From: Mycoavidus sp. HKI
GTDB taxonomy: Bacteria; Pseudomonadota; Gammaproteobacteria; Burkholderiales; Burkholderiaceae
NCBI RefSeq assembly: GCF_020023735.2
Contig: NZ_CP076444.2
Coordinates: forward strand, 1,379,501 to 1,443,500
Reading direction: 5' to 3'
Length of the DNA stretch: 64,000 nucleotides
The stretch's first letter is position 1. Every line of letters begins with the position of its first letter. The notes beneath the pieces were generated by a model, which saw only the letters and a program-made list of their open reading frames with translations, made no database searches and was not told the DNA's origin. Positions 20,894 to 30,776 of this stretch are shown here, in pieces. The position numbers and the translations under genes are program-made.

Positions 20894-21463
20894 TTAAGCT
20901 TTGGGCAAAGTCACGCCTCTTTGCCCTTGATATTTTCCGTCACGATCACGATATGAGACCTCACATACCTCGTCGCTCTCAAAAAATAATACCTGCGCCA
21001 CGCCTTCATTAGCGTAAATCTTGGCGGGCAGCGGTGTCGTATTAGAAAACTCCAGCGTCACAAAACCTTCCCATTCTGGCTCAAACGGCGTCACATTAAC
21101 GATAATGCCACAGCGCGCATAGGTCGATTTTCCTAGGCAAACCGTCAAGACACTGCGCGGAATCCGAAAATACTCAACCGTACGCGCCAGCGCAAACGAA
21201 TTGGGCGGAATAATACAAACGTCTCCCCTAAAATCAACAAACGATTTTTCATCAAAATTTTTCGGATCGACGATCGTTGAATTGATATTGGTGAAGATTT
21301 TAAATTCGTCCGCACACCGGATATCGTAGCCATAGCTTGAGGTGCCATAGCTGACAATCTTTTGGCCATCTTCGCCGAGACGAACTTGGTTCGCTGAAAA
21401 CGGCTCGATCATCTTATGCGTTTCGGCCATACGCCGAATCCATTTATCGGATTTAATTGTCAT
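20894..21463 (-). CDS. dcd: dCTP deaminase
   Basis: A 189-residue enzyme that deaminates dCTP to dUTP for thymidylate synthesis. Family motifs [33 protein letters not shown] and the C-terminal [12 protein letters not shown] are intact. Start is ATG at 21463. It stands alone between the decarboxylase and the lasso cluster. Confidence 0.96.
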
Positions 21464-21533
21464 TCGATGTGCTGAGAAGAGAAGTAAAAGCGACTATTTT
21501 ACTTGATTGAAGCAGCTTGGTGGGACCCGCTAC

Positions 21534-21581
21534 ACATTCGCCGGCCTGGCGCTGAATGTGGTGCCTCGCTGCCGGCACCAC
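21534..21581. terminator. Two overlapping hairpins after the lasso operon
   Basis: ACATTC at 21534 pairs with GAATGT at 21554-21559. GTGGTGCC at 21558-21565 pairs with GGCACCAC at 21574-21581. The stems share two bases and would be mutually exclusive if both formed fully. They lie 94 bases past the stop of the lasso transporter gene, so they may end that transcript. No T-run is visible. Confidence 0.35.
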
Positions 21582-21674
21582 CGCTGGCTGACTGCGGCTT
21601 AGCTTAACGCAGGTCCACGCTATAAAACAATAGCATGATTGCGCTTAATGCTTGCGCTGCCACTACCTGCCACT

Positions 21675-23471
21675 TCAAAACGCGGCGCTGACTTGACGCT
21701 GTTCAAGCATAGGGGACCCAACCTGCTTATGCCAAAGGCTCGCATAAATGCCATTTTTCGCCAACAAACTACCATGCGTGCCTTGCTCAGCAATCGCGCC
21801 ATCTTTTAACACTAGGATCAAATCCGCATGTTGAATGGCTGATAGCCGATGAGCGATGATAAGCCGGGTGGTTTGAAGATAACGTTCATGCAAATGCTTA
21901 AAAATCGTCGCTTCAGTTTGCCCATCAAGGGCGGCTGTTGGCTCGTCTAAAAGGAGTAAATGACTTTGCCTCAAAAGTGCGCGGGCCAGCGTGACACGCT
22001 GCCGTTCCCCGCCTGAGAGTTTGTTACCGCGCTCACCAATTTGAGTTTCGAGCCCAGCAGCTGCAGCCGCAATCACTGGCGTGAGCGCCGCTGTGCTGAT
22101 GGCCCGCGTAAGCTCTGCCTCTGATGCATGCGGACAAGCAAAATTGATGTTTTCGCGTAACGACCGATCGAGCAAATGCGCGTCCTGAGTGGCATAACTG
22201 ACCGACTGACGCAACTTTTGCTCAGAAAACGATTCGATCGGTCGACCATCAATCAAAATCGCTCCGCTATCCAATGAATACAAACGCAATAACAACTTCA
22301 TCAAGGTCGACTTACCAGCGCCAGTCGGGCCGACAATCGCACAAAATGCACCGGCTGGAACGGTAAAGCTCGCATCTCGCAAAACGTATTTACTCGGAGC
22401 ATGGCTAAAACTCGCCTGCTTAAATTGGATCGATGGCGCTCGCTCAAACAGCGCATCACTAGCAGACTTGAAATCCCAGCGGGTCTCCAATTTATCCAGC
22501 AGCTCTTCGAGATTGAACAAACCAAGCCGTGCTTCACGGATGGCATAACCAAAAGAACTCAATGGCAGGGTGAATTGCAAAAGGTAACCATTTAACAGCG
22601 CGAAGTCGCCCACGGTAAACCGCTGCGCAAAGATATCTCGGCACGCCATACTCGTCAGCGTAGCGAGCCCAATGCCAACAATCAGTAACTGCAGCACGCC
22701 GAAGATTTCCATTTTTCGAGCAAGCTGGACACTCGCTTGTTCTCGCGCCTTGTAAACTCGGTCAAGCTGTCTCAATTCGCCCGCTTCATTTGAAAAAGCT
22801 TTGACCGTATCGGCATGCGTGAGGGTATCAATCAGCACAGTTGAGGCACGGTCCGAAGCCAGATTTTTCTGACGCTGTAAGCCCGTATAATAGGAAATCG
22901 TTAGGGTCGTGGAATACAGATACGCCGATAAAAATCCGAGTAGGACAAAAGCATAAACCGCGCCAAACATAAAAAATACGACAATGCAAGCTAGGCTAAT
23001 TTCAATGCAAAGTGGCGCAATATGCCAAAAAATCCCAATCAGAGCACGCATCACACTGTCTTGTGCGCGGCTTACCTCGCTCGCCGAAGCACCGCTTTGG
23101 TGGTCACTCAGCGCAGCAGCGGGACGGTTAAGGACTTGGCTAACATAATTGACCGTGATCGACCGTTTGATGCGCTCATTGATTGCCGTCACCAGATACT
23201 GCTCACCACGCCGCAACGCTTGTGAGAAAAACCACGCACAGCCATACGCTATACACAGCGCATAAGCGGTGATTGATGAAGTCGATAAATTAGAAAAATC
23301 GTCAATCAACAATTTAAGCAGCACTGGCGTCACCACGGCCAGACCAATTGAAAATCCGGTACATCCGGTAGCTGCAATCACTTGCCAGCGCGCATACCGC
23401 TCAGCGGTCCATAAGCAGCTAAACAGAAAACGAATCGCCTTAAAGGCTTTAGGCATTTTGACTAATTTCAT
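21675..23471 (-). CDS. Lasso peptide ABC exporter (D protein)
   Basis: A 598-residue fused ABC transporter that would export the mature lasso peptide and give self-immunity. The N-terminal half has several membrane segments. The nucleotide-binding domain has Walker A GPTGAGKST, signature LSGGERQRVTLARAL, Walker B HLLLLDEPTAALDG and the H-loop in IIAHRLSAI. It starts three bases after the stop of the C gene, so the two are translationally linked. There is no peptidase domain, as expected, since leader removal is done by the B protein. Codon use looks like that of its neighbours. Confidence 0.88.
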   Translation of the reverse strand: MKLVKMPKAFKAIRFLFSCLWTAERYARWQVIAATGCTGFSIGLAVVTPVLLKLLIDDFSNLSTSSITAYALCIAYGCAWFFSQALRRGEQYLVTAINERIKRSITVNYVSQVLNRPAAALSDHQSGASASEVSRAQDSVMRALIGIFWHIAPLCIEISLACIVVFFMFGAVYAFVLLGFLSAYLYSTTLTISYYTGLQRQKNLASDRASTVLIDTLTHADTVKAFSNEAGELRQLDRVYKAREQASVQLARKMEIFGVLQLLIVGIGLATLTSMACRDIFAQRFTVGDFALLNGYLLQFTLPLSSFGYAIREARLGLFNLEELLDKLETRWDFKSASDALFERAPSIQFKQASFSHAPSKYVLRDASFTVPAGAFCAIVGPTGAGKSTLMKLLLRLYSLDSGAILIDGRPIESFSEQKLRQSVSYATQDAHLLDRSLRENINFACPHASEAELTRAISTAALTPVIAAAAAGLETQIGERGNKLSGGERQRVTLARALLRQSHLLLLDEPTAALDGQTEATIFKHLHERYLQTTRLIIAHRLSAIQHADLILVLKDGAIAEQGTHGSLLAKNGIYASLWHKQVGSPMLEQRQVSAAF

Positions 23472-23474
23472 TGG

Positions 23475-25223
23475 CTATTGCCATCCTTGAATAAAGAGTT
23501 CTGCGGCATAAAGATGAAGAATATCCATAAAATATTCGCTACGACCTTTGCAACTTTCCTGGATTGCGTGACGGGTTTTAATTGGGTCGATATACCCTTG
23601 CTTAACAAGAAAACCCTCAAGACAGTGCGCCATCACATGATCCTTATGTTGGCGTATGCCGAGCAAATCGATACCGGAGGTTTCACCTTTGTTACGCCGC
23701 CAGAGATGTGGATAGCCGGTTGCCTCGGAGACGGCTTGCCGCACGATAATCCGATTATGGGGACCATCAAAATGACGGTAGCTGGGTATCGACAGCGCAT
23801 ATTCGACCATTGGCTGGCAAAGAAATGGATAATGCGTACCCTTTTTGAATGGATACGCTGGCGTCCTGACATCATCAAGCGCCAAATAGGCGAGGAATAA
23901 TTGGTATAACTTGCCAGGCAAGCGAGTCTTGGTTTTTTGCATAAACGGATGCAAATGAGAGCGGCCATCAAGGGGGGGTAATTGGGCCGCGTCAGAGATT
24001 AAGCCAAATGTGCCGCTCACGCCCTCGGAGGGGTCCGCAGCGAGTGCAGACTTGATAGCCTGCCACCCAATGTGCGCGAGCGATGTTCTACGGATCAACG
24101 CCAAATCCATCGCAATCCGAAACAACTGCCGCCAGCGCAACGTGAGCATGGCATCGGCCAGCACGCCAAAAGGCGGCGGTGCTAGAAAGAGCGAATCCCC
24201 GCCATGTCCGCTAATCAAAACACTATTTTCACGCTCTTCGAGCCGGCTCGCAAAATGCTGATTAAAGGCCAGCAAGCAATATCGGATATGCGGCTTGGCA
24301 ACACGCGGCAGATCTTTGACCGGCGCAAACGATAAAACGTCAGTGTCGATTTCACCGAGCTGAGCACCGGCGCTTTGGGCGACGCGGCGGGCATGCTCAA
24401 GTTCGTTAGACGAGCCCACCGCCGAATTGTAATAATGAGCGCAAGCAATCCGCTGCTGAGCAGGCGCTACCGCGCGCAATGCCAATAAAACAGAGCTCGA
24501 CTCTAAGCCGCCTGAAAGTTCTAATACCGGCCGCTCATCGTTTGGCATCTGCAAGCTCAGGTAGTTTTTCAAAATCTCATACGGATTTTGAGAGGCTAAG
24601 CCATCTGTCGCGCTCATCAGCGGATTCCAAACCGGCAACATTTCCGGCTTATGTCCATGCGTATAGAAAATAGCGCATCCTGGTGGCAGCTCCGAGACAC
24701 CCTCAAATGGCAACTCGCCACTTTGCACTGAACCGGTTCGCAGCCAAGTGGTAAAAAACGAGGTATTCCATCCCGGGCGCTCGCCCCTCTCCTTGAGCGT
24801 CTGATGCAAGCAGGTCATGCTGTCTGAAAACAACAACCCGTGGCGCTCAGACCATGACCAATAGATTGCCCACTGGTTACTCGGATCGCAACAGCAAATG
24901 AATTTCTTGGCTACCTTATCAAAGCAGACAAATAAATACCGCCCCCAAAATTTAGCGGTTAATAAAGACGGGCCTTTTAAGGCAATCTCACGCAAGTCAT
25001 TTTCATTAATTTCAGTATTGTCTTGCTTTGAAAAAGCTTGCCCATAAAAGCCATAGAAATACGCTTCGCTCTCACGATACAGAGTGCATGTAGTATGGCG
25101 CTCGTCTGCTTCCTGCCATAACGCACCGGCTATTTGGCCGGTTTTATCTTGAGTTAAAACCCAGTCCCGGTTTGGCGTTAAAAATTCCTGTGTTTGGGGA
25201 TAAATGATGCCGAGAACGGTCAT
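23475..25223 (-). CDS. Lasso cyclase, asparagine-synthetase-like (C protein)
   Basis: About 582 residues. Lasso C proteins adenylate the ring Asp or Glu side chain so the core N terminus can attack it, forming the macrolactam. An N-terminal glutaminase-like domain is followed by a synthetase domain with the ATP loop LELSGGLESSSVLLAL; the usual SGGxDS aspartate is Glu here. A second motif SGHGGDSLFLA is typical of asparagine synthetases. The ATG at 25223 (MTVLGIIYPQTQEF) is chosen; a TTG at 25256 would add 11 residues. It overlaps the B gene by 80 bases in another frame. Confidence 0.88.
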   Translation of the reverse strand: MTVLGIIYPQTQEFLTPNRDWVLTQDKTGQIAGALWQEADERHTTCTLYRESEAYFYGFYGQAFSKQDNTEINENDLREIALKGPSLLTAKFWGRYLFVCFDKVAKKFICCCDPSNQWAIYWSWSERHGLLFSDSMTCLHQTLKERGERPGWNTSFFTTWLRTGSVQSGELPFEGVSELPPGCAIFYTHGHKPEMLPVWNPLMSATDGLASQNPYEILKNYLSLQMPNDERPVLELSGGLESSSVLLALRAVAPAQQRIACAHYYNSAVGSSNELEHARRVAQSAGAQLGEIDTDVLSFAPVKDLPRVAKPHIRYCLLAFNQHFASRLEERENSVLISGHGGDSLFLAPPPFGVLADAMLTLRWRQLFRIAMDLALIRRTSLAHIGWQAIKSALAADPSEGVSGTFGLISDAAQLPPLDGRSHLHPFMQKTKTRLPGKLYQLFLAYLALDDVRTPAYPFKKGTHYPFLCQPMVEYALSIPSYRHFDGPHNRIIVRQAVSEATGYPHLWRRNKGETSGIDLLGIRQHKDHVMAHCLEGFLVKQGYIDPIKTRHAIQESCKGRSEYFMDILHLYAAELFIQGWQ

Positions 25224-25956
25224 AGGGTAATTCCAAGAGCGGTGTTGGAAATTCAAGAATGACGGACAGCTCCTTTCTTCTCAGAGCACTGTCGCCAATG
25301 ATCGCATGGTCAGTTTCCGACCACGCATGCGCATAAAATGGGAAAGATTGGACGCCAATTAGCAGCTTTGATGCCAGGCCGGCACGCGCACACACGAGCG
25401 TTAGCGCTGCAGACCACTCCAGGCATTTAGTGGGTTTTGGATAGAATAAACACGCCCAATTGAGTGCATTCACAAAAGGCGTGTATTCTTCTGTTTGCCC
25501 AAAACGCAAATCATTTTGCCCAATAGCTTGAGAACACAGTTGCAAGACGCCAGTGAGCCCCTGCTTTGTAGCGTGCTTGTGTACCGCTCTTAGGTCAAGC
25601 ATCGCTCTTATAATCCAGCGCCAAGCAGGCCTATGCTCAAAAGCATTATCCGCCAGCTTCCACCCATTAGCAGACATCCCTCCTGTTTGCGGGGAAGGAC
25701 TGACCGAATTTAATTTGGGATCGACTGCCGGAAAGGTTTGCTCTGTGACTAAATGGGCCTCAATTAATTTTTGCAAAATACTGGTATTGGAGGCAACATT
25801 CACTTCAAAAGAAGCCGAATCAAGGCCAAGATAAGGAGCGACTGCGGCTGACTGCCCATGAGATAAAACGACGTACCGATCACGGATCACGTCGAGCACA
25901 ATAATTTGCCCTGAAAAACAAGCCCCAAAAATATTGGGCATCAAATGATGAGGCAT
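25144..25956 (-). CDS. Lasso leader peptidase with RRE domain (fused B protein)
   Basis: A 270-residue protein that binds the leader and cuts it from the core. The first 85 or so residues resemble the PqqD-like RiPP recognition element (GQIIVLDVIRDRYVVLS). The C-terminal half is a transglutaminase-like cysteine protease with candidate catalytic Cys in TKCLEWSAALTL, His in FYAHAWSETD and Asp in AIIGDSA. Fusion of both parts is the usual proteobacterial form. The start at 25956 has only a weak ribosome-binding site; a hairpin lies between it and the first precursor gene. Confidence 0.87.
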   Translation of the reverse strand: MPHHLMPNIFGACFSGQIIVLDVIRDRYVVLSHGQSAAVAPYLGLDSASFEVNVASNTSILQKLIEAHLVTEQTFPAVDPKLNSVSPSPQTGGMSANGWKLADNAFEHRPAWRWIIRAMLDLRAVHKHATKQGLTGVLQLCSQAIGQNDLRFGQTEEYTPFVNALNWACLFYPKPTKCLEWSAALTLVCARAGLASKLLIGVQSFPFYAHAWSETDHAIIGDSALRRKELSVILEFPTPLLELPYDRSRHHLSPNTGIFNAKPGLGFNSR

Positions 25957-25988
25957 CTATCTTTTTTATGTAATTGTTTTCCAAAAAC

Positions 25989-26032
25989 GCCAGACAAAGC
26001 ACCTAAGAGTAGATTAAGTGCTTGTGTCTGGC
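25989..26032 (-). terminator. Attenuator-like hairpin between lasso precursor and B gene
   Basis: GCCAGACAAAGCAC at 25989-26002 pairs with GTGCTTGTGTCTGGC at 26018-26032 with one bulged base. On the minus strand the stem is followed by GTTTTTGG. It starts about 25 bases after the precursor stop codon. A partial terminator here would keep precursor transcripts more abundant than those of the enzyme genes, as reported for other proteobacterial lasso operons. Confidence 0.65.
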
Positions 26033-26051
26033 ACCTCCCTTATGAGCCGAT

Positions 26052-26107
26052 GATCCTTATAGGAACCGACCAACGCCAGCTTCTCTATATTGTCCTGAGC
26101 CACCCAT
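26052..26107 (-). repeat. 56-base exact repeat, copy 1 (lasso core)
   Basis: Identical over 56 bases to 26287-26342. It covers the codons for the last leader Met, the whole 15-residue core, the stop codon and five bases beyond. Confidence 0.95.
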
Positions 26108-26191
26108 GGTTGCTTCAGAAGCGCTAAATTGCGTTAACGCTTCATCATCTAATTGGATAGCTTGCGAATTGAGTTCTTGATTCTTAATCAT
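26057..26191 (-). CDS. Lasso peptide precursor 1 (burhizin-like)
   Basis: A 44-residue precursor. The leader has 29 residues and ends in SASEATM; the core is GGSGQYREAGVGRFL. The conserved Thr at leader position -2 places the cut after Met, giving Gly1. Glu8 is the only acidic residue in the core, so a Gly1-Glu8 macrolactam with an eight-residue ring and a seven-residue tail is predicted. The ring resembles burhizin (GGAGQYKE, from memory). A GGGGAG ribosome-binding site stands before the ATG at 26191. The core is identical to that of precursor 2, while the leader differs. It is too short for routine gene calling. Confidence 0.9.
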   Translation of the reverse strand: MIKNQELNSQAIQLDDEALTQFSASEATMGGSGQYREAGVGRFL

Positions 26192-26218
26192 GGTTTTCTC
26201 CCCATTTTTTCGTTGAAA

Positions 26219-26268
26219 GAATGCCAGGCAAGTCATTTATTTGCTTCTAGAATACTGGCCTGGCATTC
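26219..26268 (-). terminator. Hairpin between the two lasso precursor genes
   Basis: GAATGCCAGGC at 26219-26229 and GCCTGGCATTC at 26258-26268 form a perfect 11-base-pair stem; AGT/ACT adds three pairs after a mismatch. It begins about 23 bases after the stop of precursor 2, the same relative place as the hairpin after precursor 1. Only a short T-run follows on the minus strand, so it may slow or stabilise rather than terminate. Confidence 0.6.
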
Positions 26269-26286
26269 GTTAGGCGACGATCAGTC

Positions 26287-26342
26287 GATCCTTATAGGAA
26301 CCGACCAACGCCAGCTTCTCTATATTGTCCTGAGCCACCCAT
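26287..26342 (-). repeat. 56-base exact repeat, copy 2 (lasso core)
   Basis: Identical to 26052-26107. The sequences diverge immediately on both sides: leaders upstream and 3-prime untranslated parts downstream differ. Confidence 0.95.
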
Positions 26343-26426
26343 TGTCGATTCGGAAGCACAAAACTCGGTGAGAGCTTCGTCTTTCAATTGGGTATCTTGT
26401 GTGGTGGTTTTTTTGCTATCGGTCAT
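26292..26426 (-). CDS. Lasso peptide precursor 2 (same core as precursor 1)
   Basis: A 44-residue precursor, first gene of the operon. The leader is MTDSKKTTTQDTQLKDEALT followed by EFCASESTM, and the core is GGSGQYREAGVGRFL. The leaders of the two precursors share the pattern DEALTxFxASExTM but differ at most other positions. Thr at -2 and Gly1 are present, and the Gly1-Glu8 ring is predicted. A GAGGAAG ribosome-binding site precedes the ATG at 26426, and a promoter lies about 130 bases upstream. Confidence 0.9.
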   Translation of the reverse strand: MTDSKKTTTQDTQLKDEALTEFCASESTMGGSGQYREAGVGRFL

Positions 26427-26551
26427 GATTACTTCCTCATTCTAATAATGAAAAATAAACCGCCCCATACTGCAGACGGATGACATCTGCTGCACACGGA
26501 TGGAATCATCACAAACGAGGATTACCTCTAAATTCCATCACGTGTTTTCGT

Positions 26552-26580
26552 ACTATAGAAGGTTAAAAAAAATTATGCAA
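26552..26580 (-). promoter_or_regulatory. Predicted sigma-70 promoter of the lasso operon
   Basis: On the minus strand TTGCAT (26580-26575) and TATAGT (26557-26552) are separated by exactly 17 bases. The spacer is A/T-rich. It lies in the intergenic region upstream of precursor 2 and points into the operon. The 5-prime untranslated region would be about 120 bases. Confidence 0.65.
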
Positions 26581-26622
26581 TAAATTTTTTGAGTTTTTTT
26601 AACCAAAATAGACTACCTACAC

Positions 26623-27156
26623 CTACCGTCGAATCACGCCACAAGCAAGCCGTGATTTTCCTACAGAAGTATCCTCATCATGCAGCACAACAACCGAGCG
26701 GCCGATCACTGAACGAATACCGTCCAATGTCAATTCAGTGACCACCACAAAACCCGTTGCGACACCATTTGTGTCCGCTTTAATATTGGGCATATTGCCT
26801 GCTGGGCGCGCGTTACCCGGTGTGCCACTCCAACTCAAGCGACTCGGGTCGAACACTTGACCAGTATTGCGTGCAGTGAATGCATCGCAGTGGCCCCGTT
26901 CATAAATTTGAAATCTGTAATCACTGTTTGGCGGTAAGTCCACGATATTGTAGGTGACCTGCATACCATCTGCACGCTCAACAAAATTAACCGTACCGCG
27001 TGCAGTACCCCCCACCACCGGCAGAAGTATCGCGTGCGCGCTCTTTTCACGCGGCCCGAATAAAGTCGAACATCCGGCATTCAGCACACTGAAAACACCC
27101 ACTATCATCAGCATGATAAAAACCGGAGAAAGCACCTTGCCTGATTGGTTTTTCAT
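26623..27156 (-). CDS. SodC-like Cu/Zn superoxide dismutase family protein, metal ligands lost
   Basis: A 177-residue exported protein. The N terminus is a signal segment ending VLNAGC, a possible but atypical lipobox. The body follows the Cu/Zn SOD fold: VNFVERADGMQVTYNI, the disulphide cysteine in ERGHCDAF and the ending SRLACGVIRR. The copper-ligand motif that normally reads GxHxH is YRFQIYE here, and the bridging and zinc histidines are also absent from the GTPGNARPAGNMPN region; only VVLHDEDT keeps one His. It is therefore unlikely to dismutate superoxide in the usual way. It lies between the lasso promoter and apbC. Confidence 0.75.
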   Translation of the reverse strand: MKNQSGKVLSPVFIMLMIVGVFSVLNAGCSTLFGPREKSAHAILLPVVGGTARGTVNFVERADGMQVTYNIVDLPPNSDYRFQIYERGHCDAFTARNTGQVFDPSRLSWSGTPGNARPAGNMPNIKADTNGVATGFVVVTELTLDGIRSVIGRSVVVLHDEDTSVGKSRLACGVIRR

Positions 27157-27287
27157 GCAATCCTCTAATACTCGTACTGCGATAAAATGCGGTCTTTATG
27201 AAAAAAATTAGCCCCCCATCACGCTAACTCAAACATCATAATACTGCTTTCGAGGCAGAATATGGGAAAATTGTACTCGCTAAGACG

Positions 27288-28376
27288 CTAGGTATTTTGC
27301 ACCACAATATCTGGAAACTTTGAGCGCATATCGCGCGCCTTACGCGCAATAGCAATGGCAACTTTGCGAGCAATTTCACGATAAATGCCTGCATTGTGAC
27401 CTTGCGGCTGCGCCACCACAGTTGGACACCCCGCATCGGTGCGCTCACGAATACTGATATCAAGCGGCAAACTACCCACCAGTTCAACGCCGTATTGAGC
27501 GCACATTTGCGCTGCACCGCCCGCGCCAAAAATAGGCTCTGCATGCCCACATTGAGTACAAATATGCGTACTCATATTCTCCACAATGCCAAGAATTGGA
27601 ATCCCCACTTTCTCGAACATTTTTAGCCCTCTTTTAGCGTCAAGTAAGGCAATATCTTGCGGCGTAGTCACAATCACCGCGCCAGTCACTGGCACCCGCT
27701 GCGCTAGCGTCAACTGGATATCCCCAGTACCCGGCGGCATGTCGATAACTAAATAGTCTAGTTCACGCCAGTTGGTTTGCTTTAGCAACTGATCAAATGC
27801 AGACGTGACCATTGGCCCCCGCCAAACCATTGGCGTATCCGTGCCAACCAAAAAACCAATCGAATTCACTTGAATGCCATAGCGCTCAAGCGGCTCCATC
27901 GATTTGCCGTCTTTTGATTCAGGCTTGCCCTCAAGGCCAAGCATCATCGGCTGGGATGGGCCATAGATATCGGCATCCAGCAGGCCAACGCTCGCTCCTT
28001 CGGCCGCCAGCGCCAGCGCTAGGTTAACGGCTGTGGTGCTTTTACCCACCCCACCTTTGCCAGATGCGACGGCAATGATATTTTTCACATTGGGGAGTAA
28101 TTTAATACCGTGCTGAACCGCGTGTGCGGTAATTTGCTGCGAAATAGTGATGTCAACACTCTCCACCCCAGGCAAGGCAGAAAGCGCATGGGTAATGCGA
28201 GTATGCAGCGCCTCAAACTGACTTTGCGCCGGATAGTTGAGCACCACATCAACCGTCACGCAGCCTTTTTCGATCGCACTATGGTGAATGCTTTTTGTTG
28301 AGATCAGGTCCTCGCCCATATGCGGATCGATAATCTGAGCGAGTGCAGCTTGAATCTGAGCGTTATCAATACTCAT
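27288..28376 (-). CDS. apbC: Mrp/ApbC family iron-sulfur carrier ATPase
   Basis: A 362-residue P-loop ATPase that carries Fe-S clusters to target proteins. An N-terminal MIP18-like domain (about 100 residues) is followed by the deviant Walker A IIAVASGKGGVGKSTTAVNL and DYLVIDMPPGTGDIQLTL. The CxxC pair is in STHICTQCGHAEPIFG. In E. coli the homologue mrp is divergent from and adjacent to metG; here metG lies 13.7 kb away. Confidence 0.94.
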   Translation of the reverse strand: MSIDNAQIQAALAQIIDPHMGEDLISTKSIHHSAIEKGCVTVDVVLNYPAQSQFEALHTRITHALSALPGVESVDITISQQITAHAVQHGIKLLPNVKNIIAVASGKGGVGKSTTAVNLALALAAEGASVGLLDADIYGPSQPMMLGLEGKPESKDGKSMEPLERYGIQVNSIGFLVGTDTPMVWRGPMVTSAFDQLLKQTNWRELDYLVIDMPPGTGDIQLTLAQRVPVTGAVIVTTPQDIALLDAKRGLKMFEKVGIPILGIVENMSTHICTQCGHAEPIFGAGGAAQMCAQYGVELVGSLPLDISIRERTDAGCPTVVAQPQGHNAGIYREIARKVAIAIARKARDMRSKFPDIVVQNT

Positions 28377-28751: not shown

Positions 28752-29492
28752 ATGAACATTAACTCAAAAAAAATCGTCCAACCTTTGGCTTCTTGCCTAC
28801 TCGTTAGCGCACTTTTGGCAGGTTGTGCAGCGCCTGCTGGGCAACAAAACAATGCCGCGCTAGGCACTGGCATCGGTGCTGCAACGGGCGCTGGCTTGGG
28901 CGCGCTAATTGGCAACTCGGAAGGCGCAATGATCGGCGGTGCAATCGGCGCCGTAGCGGGCGGTATGACGGCTTACAACTGGTCAGCTATTAAGCAACGC
29001 TTAGCAGGCGCCACACAAGGCACTGGCACGCAAATCACTGAACAACAAGACGGTTCGCTCAAAGTCAATATTCCGAGTTCAGTCTCTTTTGCAACGAATA
29101 GCTATCAAATCCGGCCAACATTTACGCCGGCTCTTGATGAGGTGGCGCGCACCTTAGTGCAAAATCCAGAGTTGGTCGCCCGGATCATTGGTCACACCGA
29201 TAATACCGGCGCGGTCCCTTACAATATGACGCTCTCACAAAGCCGCTCACTAGCGGTGGTTAACTTTCTCGTCAGCCGCGGCGTTGCCTCTGGCCGGCTC
29301 TCCTCTGAAGGGCGCGGGCAAGCTCAACCCATTGCGGACAACCTCACACCGACTGGCCGCGCGCAAAACCGGCGGGTCGAAATTTTCTTGTACCCGCTGC
29401 AAGCAAAACCTATCCAGTCGGTCCTGAATAAATCGTTTTGCGTACTATGTGATCTAAAAACTCAAACCAACAGTAAAGGTATGACGGAATAA
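28752..29492 (+). CDS. OmpA-family lipoprotein with IS-altered C terminus
   Basis: An outer-membrane lipoprotein of the YfiB/Pal-like OmpA group that binds peptidoglycan. The signal peptide ends in LLAGC at residues 21 to 25. A glycine-zipper segment (GTGIGAATGAGLGALIGN and MIGGAIGAVAGG) follows, then the OmpA domain with IIGHTDNTGAVPYNMTLSQ and NRRVEIFLYP. The native protein would have had 222 residues, ending KPIQ. An insertion sequence sits in the last codon, so the frame now runs 24 residues into the element. The OmpA domain itself is complete, so the protein is probably still functional. Confidence 0.88.
   Translation: MNINSKKIVQPLASCLLVSALLAGCAAPAGQQNNAALGTGIGAATGAGLGALIGNSEGAMIGGAIGAVAGGMTAYNWSAIKQRLAGATQGTGTQITEQQDGSLKVNIPSSVSFATNSYQIRPTFTPALDEVARTLVQNPELVARIIGHTDNTGAVPYNMTLSQSRSLAVVNFLVSRGVASGRLSSEGRGQAQPIADNLTPTGRAQNRRVEIFLYPLQAKPIQSVLNKSFCVLCDLKTQTNSKGMTE
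29416..29431 (+). repeat. Left terminal inverted repeat of the IS
   Basis: AGTCGGTCCTGAATAA, the exact reverse complement of the right end. It also encodes part of the lipoprotein extension. Confidence 0.92.
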
Positions 29493-30776
29493 AACGGATA
29501 AAAGAAAGACGTAAAAAAGCCGAAGCTTTCTGAGGATCATACGTAAGTTATGCCCAGCACCACAGAGCACCGCGTGCATGGCATCGCCTAACGCGCCTTT
29601 GAGCCAATTTCGGTCTAGTTTCCCATCCGCTTTCATATGGCCAATAGTGGGCTCAATGGCACTGCGTCGTTTGATGACCGCGCGTAGCGTACGTGTGATA
29701 CCCCGACGCATACCAGAGTGATAGATTTTTACGCCATCGATCTCAATGCCTTTGTAACCGCGATCAACGATCGCAACCTCTGGAGTCACATCACACAGGA
29801 TCGCTGCTTGTTCTAGTGCTTCGGCCAGCGTATGACCGTCATAAGGATTTCCTGGCATTGAGCGTGCGCCAACCACCAACCCTTCCTGGTGAGTCGTCGT
29901 GATCGATACTTTCACACCGAACTCGTAAGGCTTACGCGCCTTGCCCTTGGCTATGCATTCCACTTCTGGGGCATGCAGAGCATAGAGTTTGTCTTTATCC
30001 TTGGGCCTTTGCGAAATGATTCGTTTTGTGCGGGATATCAACTCTCTCAATGCATCACGGCCTTGTACGGCCACTGACTCGATTTGTCTCTCAACGTCAC
30101 GCATCACTCGCCCCACTCGCGAACGTAGTGTACCCAACGCCTTGTTCATTCGTTTGTACTGCTTCGCGTGCGCATAACGGCTGATCTGGGTTGATAGGCG
30201 AGGCGCAATTCGGTTGTAGTTTTGCCGTAACTTTAAACCGTATTGTGCCGCCACTTTCACCAGATGCTCTCGGCAACGCTCTAGCAATCGCGAATCGGTA
30301 GGATGCGATATCGCCTTCTCCATCACCGTGGTGTCAACGATCACTCGTTTTACGCTCGATGCTTTGATGACATCACTACGTTTGGCCGCTTCGATCGTCT
30401 CCGCTAATAGCTCTTCTACGCCCGCTTCACCAAGCCGATTACGCCAACGCGTTAGACTTGACGGGTCAATCGGTGCCTCAGTTTGAAGGTACGTTTCCCC
30501 TGTAAAAAATTGTTGGTAGGGGTTTTCCAGCCAACCCAACACCACCTCTTCATCAGACAAATTGAATGCGTATTGCAGATACAGTAAGCCGGCTATGAGC
30601 CGCGGCGAGGTCGCAGGTCGACCTCTGTTTGAGGTGAAGCTCTCACTCATCAACGCGCTAAGCTGATCCCAGTTGATTAAACCCGCCAGTCGCACCAACG
30701 GATGCTTCATATTGATCTGTTCGTTTAGCGGATGCCGGAATAAATCTCCTGTGCTCGCCGTTGCCTTTGGACCCAT
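29454..30776 (-). CDS. IS5-family DDE transposase
   Basis: A 440-residue transposase. The N-terminal domain contains GRPATSPRLIAGLLYLQYAFNLSDEEVV, common in IS5 transposases. The DDE residues can be placed in VIVDTTVMEKA, AIVDRGYKGIE and RSAIEPTIGHMK; the last has the R-x3-E-x6-K signature of IS4/IS5 enzymes. The frame is intact, with a GAGG ribosome-binding site before the ATG at 30776, so the element may be active. The C-terminal tail continues close to the left inverted repeat. Confidence 0.93.
   Translation of the reverse strand: MGPKATASTGDLFRHPLNEQINMKHPLVRLAGLINWDQLSALMSESFTSNRGRPATSPRLIAGLLYLQYAFNLSDEEVVLGWLENPYQQFFTGETYLQTEAPIDPSSLTRWRNRLGEAGVEELLAETIEAAKRSDVIKASSVKRVIVDTTVMEKAISHPTDSRLLERCREHLVKVAAQYGLKLRQNYNRIAPRLSTQISRYAHAKQYKRMNKALGTLRSRVGRVMRDVERQIESVAVQGRDALRELISRTKRIISQRPKDKDKLYALHAPEVECIAKGKARKPYEFGVKVSITTTHQEGLVVGARSMPGNPYDGHTLAEALEQAAILCDVTPEVAIVDRGYKGIEIDGVKIYHSGMRRGITRTLRAVIKRRSAIEPTIGHMKADGKLDRNWLKGALGDAMHAVLCGAGHNLRMILRKLRLFYVFLLSVLFRHTFTVGLSF

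Follow-up and report, generated by a model that had tools for sequence, protein, structure and literature searches.

The 64,000-nucleotide stretch of the Mycoavidus sp. HKI genome analyzed here (contig NZ_CP076444.2, positions 1,379,501 to 1,443,500; hereafter the window) carries a complete lasso peptide operon. With a probability of roughly 0.93, this operon exports a single lasso peptide, GGSGQYREAGVGRFL, from two precursors, and the peptide has the sequence of the core encoded by an orphan gene of Mycetohabitans rhizoxinica HKI 454, which we take as that of mycetohabin-15. The genome of the window is a single contig of 2,254,889 bases, and Mycoavidus is described in the literature as a genus of endosymbionts in Mortierella and related fungi. 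The operon is of a known kind and its product almost certainly a known peptide, in a genus for which the literature search, covering parts of the sources, found no lasso product. What may matter is the unexpected spread of the core, which, allowing for a difference of one residue, reaches from fungal endosymbionts to Robbsia, Streptomyces and, it seems, a Bacillus-type source.

Operon and predicted peptide

The operon lies on the minus strand in the order A-A-B-C-D, and its five frames are open and of full length (Table 1). This order had been proposed in a first-pass annotation made from the letters and their open reading frames, and it is borne out by the open frames together with the family matches. 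Both precursors end in the same 15-residue core, with Thr at position −2 (Thr-Met before Gly1), Gly1 and Glu8. The features by which a lasso precursor is recognized, namely Thr at −2, a first residue with a free amine and Asp or Glu at positions 7–9, are thus present in both, and Gly1 and Glu8 agree with the eight-residue ring predicted earlier. Both precursors also exceed the curated cut-off (45 bits) of the NCBIfam model lasso_burhizin (NF042427), which places them in the burhizin family, as had been proposed. The predicted lasso peptide has a monoisotopic mass of 1534.764 ([M+H]+ 1535.771, [M+2H]2+ 768.389), matching the earlier hand-calculated value of about 1534.76.

The matches of C to Asn_synthase and of D to ABC_membrane and ABC_tran confirm that these proteins are asparagine-synthetase-like and an ATP-binding cassette (ABC) exporter, respectively. 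The SGGLESS motif of C, taken as its ATP-binding motif, is invariant (11/11), and the start of the C gene overlaps the end of the B gene by 80 bases (25144-25223). In a sequence search against solved structures, D resembled ABCB-type transporters, and no structure related to B or C was found at the limits used. In the B2 domain of B, Cys178, His210 and Asp222 are invariant in all eight aligned B proteins; we take them to be the catalytic triad. In all three Mycoavidus operons, the B frame extends beyond the part shared with Mycetohabitans.

Table 1. Features of the lasso operon, with positions counted from the first letter of the window
Feature	Position	Strand	Details
Possible weak promoter, TTGCAT-17-TATAGT	26552..26580	−	spotted by eye; 8/12 consensus letters, scan threshold 9
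Upstream lasso precursor A, 44 residues	26292..26426	−	core GGSGQYREAGVGRFL at 26339-26295; lasso_burhizin 93.7 bits; Pfam DUF5967
Hairpin between the two precursor genes	26219..26268	−	97-base spacer, fold −29.8 kcal/mol, z −3.9
Downstream lasso precursor A, 44 residues	26057..26191	−	core GGSGQYREAGVGRFL at 26104-26060; lasso_burhizin 88.4 bits
Hairpin after the last precursor, before B	25989..26032	−	z −4.25
B protein, RRE-like N-terminal part (weak) and B2 leader protease	25144..25956	−	lasso_biosyn_B2 63.1 bits, cut-off 33
C protein, asparagine-synthetase-like lasso cyclase	23475..25223	−	Pfam Asn_synthase 63.3 bits (gathering score 21)
D protein, ABC exporter, transmembrane and ATPase domains	21675..23471	−	Pfam ABC_membrane and ABC_tran

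By analogy with known lasso systems, the N-terminal part of B would bind the precursor leader, and the B2 domain would cut after the residue that follows Thr(−2). C would activate Glu8 at the expense of ATP and then join it to the amine of Gly1, so that an eight-residue ring would close around the tail, with Arg13 and Phe14 as the likely plugs. D would export the mature peptide.

Several observations weigh against this reading. The earlier description of B as a RiPP (ribosomally synthesized and post-translationally modified peptide) recognition element (RRE) fused to a protease was upheld for the protease, whereas the N-terminal halves of all eight B proteins gave no RRE family match at E ≤ 10. 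The predicted structure of B is of low confidence (mean predicted local distance difference test score 47.7), with three strands followed by three helices. A weak pairwise match between B and the B protein of Robbsia (E 3e-4) lends the RRE half weak support, as does a comparison of profiles, in which B1-like N-termini matched over 46 columns with 37% probability. C scored 99 bits against its best NCBIfam cyclase model, macrolact_Ik_Al, under the cut-off of 300. The promoter that had been placed before the operon was not recovered by a sigma-70 scan, which scored no minus-strand promoter and a single plus-strand site (mean over shuffles 1.9); what stands of that claim is the by-eye candidate in Table 1. 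Finally, identity with mycetohabin-15, though almost certain, rests on length, elimination and what the abstract of the original paper reportedly states, as set out below.

Probable identity with mycetohabin-15

M. rhizoxinica HKI 454 encodes three burhizin-family precursors, whose cores are 23, 16 and 15 residues long. The 23-residue core is the burhizin sequence given in a review table. The precursor with the 16-residue core adjoins matches to B, C and D. For the precursor with the 15-residue core (locus L033), no B, C or D match was found in the surrounding 14 kb; the core of this orphan, GGSGQYREAGVGRFL, agrees with the window core at 15/15 residues. We take strain B1 of M. rhizoxinica to be HKI 454, and the abstract of Bratovanov et al. 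2020 is said to have traced mycetohabin-15 to an orphan gene distant from the cluster. By length and elimination, the 15-residue orphan core should be mycetohabin-15. Reviews attribute the mycetohabins to M. rhizoxinica or its type strain B1, and one review reports that mycetohabin-15 and -16 were obtained from Escherichia coli BL21. The same core, at 15/15 residues, also occurs in Mycoavidus cysteinexigens, Mycoavidus sp. B2-EB and Mycetohabitans B8.

Relative to mycetohabin-15 of HKI 454, the window shares by inference the whole core, and also the leader class and the type of B-C-D machinery; it differs in carrying two copies inside an operon, whereas no B, C or D was found in the 14 kb around the HKI 454 gene. 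Mycetohabin-16, whose core is taken to be GGSGKYKEAGVGRFLD of HKI 454, shares 13 of the first 15 positions and differs by Lys5, Lys7 and an extra Asp16; matches to B, C and D lie next to its gene. In that HKI 454 operon (locus L035, 4331-8570), B and D each match as two pieces in different frames, which may reflect either an error of sequencing or a true break. Burhizin (burhizin-23) shares Gly1, Gly2, Gly4, Gln5, Tyr6, Glu8, Gly12, Arg13 and the family model with the window core; its tail, VEAGRWSDRIDSDDE, and its total of 23 residues are unlike it. The contrast with the burhizin tail, pointed out in the first-pass annotation, therefore holds, but what it sets apart is the mycetohabin branch, which had been described before.

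That annotation, which stated that it could not search, knew of no described peptide with this sequence. In keeping with this, a string search of the accessible literature found neither the 15-residue core nor its first ten residues, and the accessible text on Mycoavidus and lasso peptides describes no Mycoavidus lasso product. The claim nevertheless fails because HKI 454 already encodes the same core, which fits mycetohabin-15 by length and orphan position and recurs in several other genera, and because mycetohabin-15 has been obtained according to the review cited above. We rejected this reading as very improbable.

Still less probable is that the cluster is a decaying relic of a reduced endosymbiont genome and yields no product. 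Such decay would agree with a second lasso locus about 0.44 Mb from the window (locus L025, 4746-8552), which has a precursor with core GAVGEKNEAGFGKYDDDAV (predicted lasso mass 1922.865), the third precursor of this genome, and intact C and D genes but no B between its C and D, and with the M. cysteinexigens counterpart of that locus (L027), in which C is present, only scraps of B are found and no D match lies within 14 kb. The window operon, however, has all five genes open at full length, the core codons of exact-core copies in Mycoavidus and Mycetohabitans differ by synonymous changes only, and its C protein is 88–90% identical to the counterparts in two sister species.

At E 0.001, the genome holds no B2 match other than the B protein of the window, which likely serves both loci. 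A candidate B remnant in the second locus, a 27-residue match (L025, 8308-8228), was discarded: it falls almost wholly within the first part of C, read in a different frame, where B and C overlap in the window. An initial scan of genome contigs with the C protein had confirmed no match.

Two precursors with identical cores

The window holds two copies, free of mismatches, of a 50-base tract that spans the core, and none of 100 shuffles gave a match even at up to 3 mismatches. Identity is limited to a stretch that begins with the codon preceding the core and ends five bases past the stop: the two cores agree at 45/45 bases and the two leaders at 55/87. Genes similar to the upstream precursor are present in M. 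cysteinexigens and Mycoavidus sp. B2-EB, and its leader agrees with theirs at 70/87 and 74/87 bases, the cores at 40/45 and 39/45, respectively. The downstream leader agrees with those of two M. cysteinexigens genes at 75/84 and 76/84 bases, and the cores at 41/45 and 39/45. The two leader types would thus seem to predate the split of the species, the cores having since become identical within the genome of the window. This pattern suggests that gene conversion centered on the core keeps the window copies identical, a proposal in which we have moderate confidence because the tract is short. In M. cysteinexigens, the upstream and middle genes are identical over all 90 bases past the stop, and the middle leader departs from the downstream one at a single base of 84; these copies look like a recent duplication, with identity extending beyond the core.

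Distribution of the family and the core

Among 299 sampled genomes of the bacterial family, of which 271 without a match are not itemized, the burhizin model matched 8 at E 0.001, spread over 3 of the 25 genera, and 7 of the 8 passed the cut-off. Three matches are Mycoavidus genomes and four belong to a second genus, three of these being Mycetohabitans; at least one further, small genome of that second genus gave no burhizin match. The eighth match comes from Robbsia andropogonis ICMP2807 and scored under the cut-off. A degenerate core pattern, with close variants, was also run on 84,980 species genomes, a collection that may leave out near relatives of the window, and returned six stretches: four in Mycetohabitans, one in Robbsia and one in Streptomyces iconiensis. 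At the protein level, the exact core occurs in 13 of 54 clusters, including Robbsia and Streptomyces gobitricini.

The Robbsia operon (locus L037, 2343-6282) has four tiny precursors after B and C, with cores GMNGVVLEGTQGRFSV, GLIGLVPESSTGYFLFEGGQ, GLIGLVPESGHGLFLLEGSQ and, last, the exact core GGSGQYREAGVGRFL. The latter is 15/15 identical to the window core and likewise has Thr at −2, whereas the leader, ending in ACGETQ, is very different and the cyclase is 27% identical over 607 columns of a local alignment. NCBI names this protein a burhizin family precursor; it scored 35.1 bits with the burhizin model (cut-off 45), the match spanning the last 15 core residues and 8 leader residues. We withdrew an initial description of the leader as unrelated, given that the model covers these 8 leader residues and that the ending resembles the CASSETL type; the Robbsia leader may be distantly related to that of the window. 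The other three Robbsia cores share Gly1, Gly4, Glu8, Gly12 and Phe14 with the exact core, and one also shares Arg13. These common residues may reflect demands of the fold, and the remaining sequence is not forced by the Robbsia operon. A 2021 survey lists zero lassopeptide clusters for its one Robbsia species.

In S. iconiensis (locus L050), the core GGSGKYREAGVGRFL agrees at 14/15 positions and has Thr at −2, but it follows a very different, actinobacterial leader (lasso_leader_L3 29.4 bits, cut-off 19), and the burhizin model (29.6 bits) matches the core end only. The precursor is followed by a cyclase gene (23% identical over 267 columns, E 0.006, local alignment), then by B1, named by eye; B and D are matched there as well, and in contrast to the single B of the window, B1 is separate from B2. 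When the S. gobitricini precursor was searched against 392 genomes sampled from the genus of S. iconiensis, only S. iconiensis matched at E 1e-10, and the distribution is therefore patchy. Two further clusters share one Bacillus-type leader and have the cores GGSGDYREAGVGRFL (14/15) and GGSGEHRESGVGRFF (Bacillus sp. CGMCC 1.60114, 11/15).

Possible conservation of the core across phyla

Lasso peptide cores usually vary fast. For Robbsia and S. iconiensis, the two cases outside the endosymbionts covered by the comparison of core DNA and enzymes, the exact core of Robbsia differs from those of Mycoavidus and Mycetohabitans at 10 to 14 of its 15 codons, all silently, near saturation of the approximately 12 silent sites, and S. 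iconiensis differs from the exact cores silently in 7 to 11 codons, with one residue changed. Because the cyclases are distant and the core codons differ silently, neither case is a recent transfer of the whole cluster. Either an old core has been held by selection, or cores have moved between leaders, or the cores have converged; convergence at 15/15 positions seems unlikely. The mature peptide thus seems to be conserved while leader and machinery change.

We tentatively propose, at slightly below even odds, that GGSGxYREAGVGRFL is encoded in two phyla or more, with Pseudomonadota and Actinomycetota as the two and Bacillota as a probable third, behind very different leaders and, in the cases compared, distant enzymes, that selection acts on the mature peptide and keeps it while leaders and machinery are exchanged, that gene conversion centered on the core keeps the two copies in the genome of the window identical, and that the producers share one target. 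The proposal is weakened by the possible distant tie of the Robbsia leader and by the named Bacillus, in which the exact core was not shown. If true, the mature molecule would have one conserved partner, a widely shared molecular target rather than an endosymbiont-specific function, and the producers would form a natural set for finding it. The grouping across phyla is not itself new because Pfam DUF5967 already brings together several such proteins, with no function assigned. Among the publications listed by our search, none showed lasso cores shared across phyla in the parts covered, and a published account calls the ecological role of such peptides unknown.

Hairpins and neighboring genes

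The hairpin that precedes B (Table 1) is conserved as a 10-pair stem over nine aligned Mycoavidus and Mycetohabitans spacers, with 80 of 90 cells paired and 14 cells changed on both sides, the stem having been positioned by reading the alignment, which favors it. The number of paired cells, the number of two-sided changed cells and the covariation score were each reached by none of 500 shuffles; when the stem was slid along the alignment, 30–40% of the cells paired. Two of five measures were not above the shuffles, namely pairs with two-sided changes (reached by 129/500) and further pair types (468/500). Folded singly, six related spacers gave z −2.1 to −4.9; the best fold of the HKI 454 burhizin spacer is a different one. 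The hairpin is possibly an attenuator or a stabilizer of the mRNA 3′ end, and it would probably set the ratio of precursor to enzyme. A search of positions 21000-27500 against Rfam returned nothing at the gathering score.

Carriage of the operon by a phage or plasmid was rejected, as a phage collection searched in near mode gave no match to the operon DNA and a plasmid collection gave none to a precursor. A reading as a defense system was likewise set aside: with three proteins submitted, PADLOC matched the exporter alone, which we took as generic ATPase matches. A copper/zinc superoxide dismutase-like gene (26623-27156, minus strand) lies immediately upstream of the operon on the same strand, and a transposase-like open reading frame, named by eye from its sequence, lies approximately 3 kb upstream (29454-30776, minus strand).

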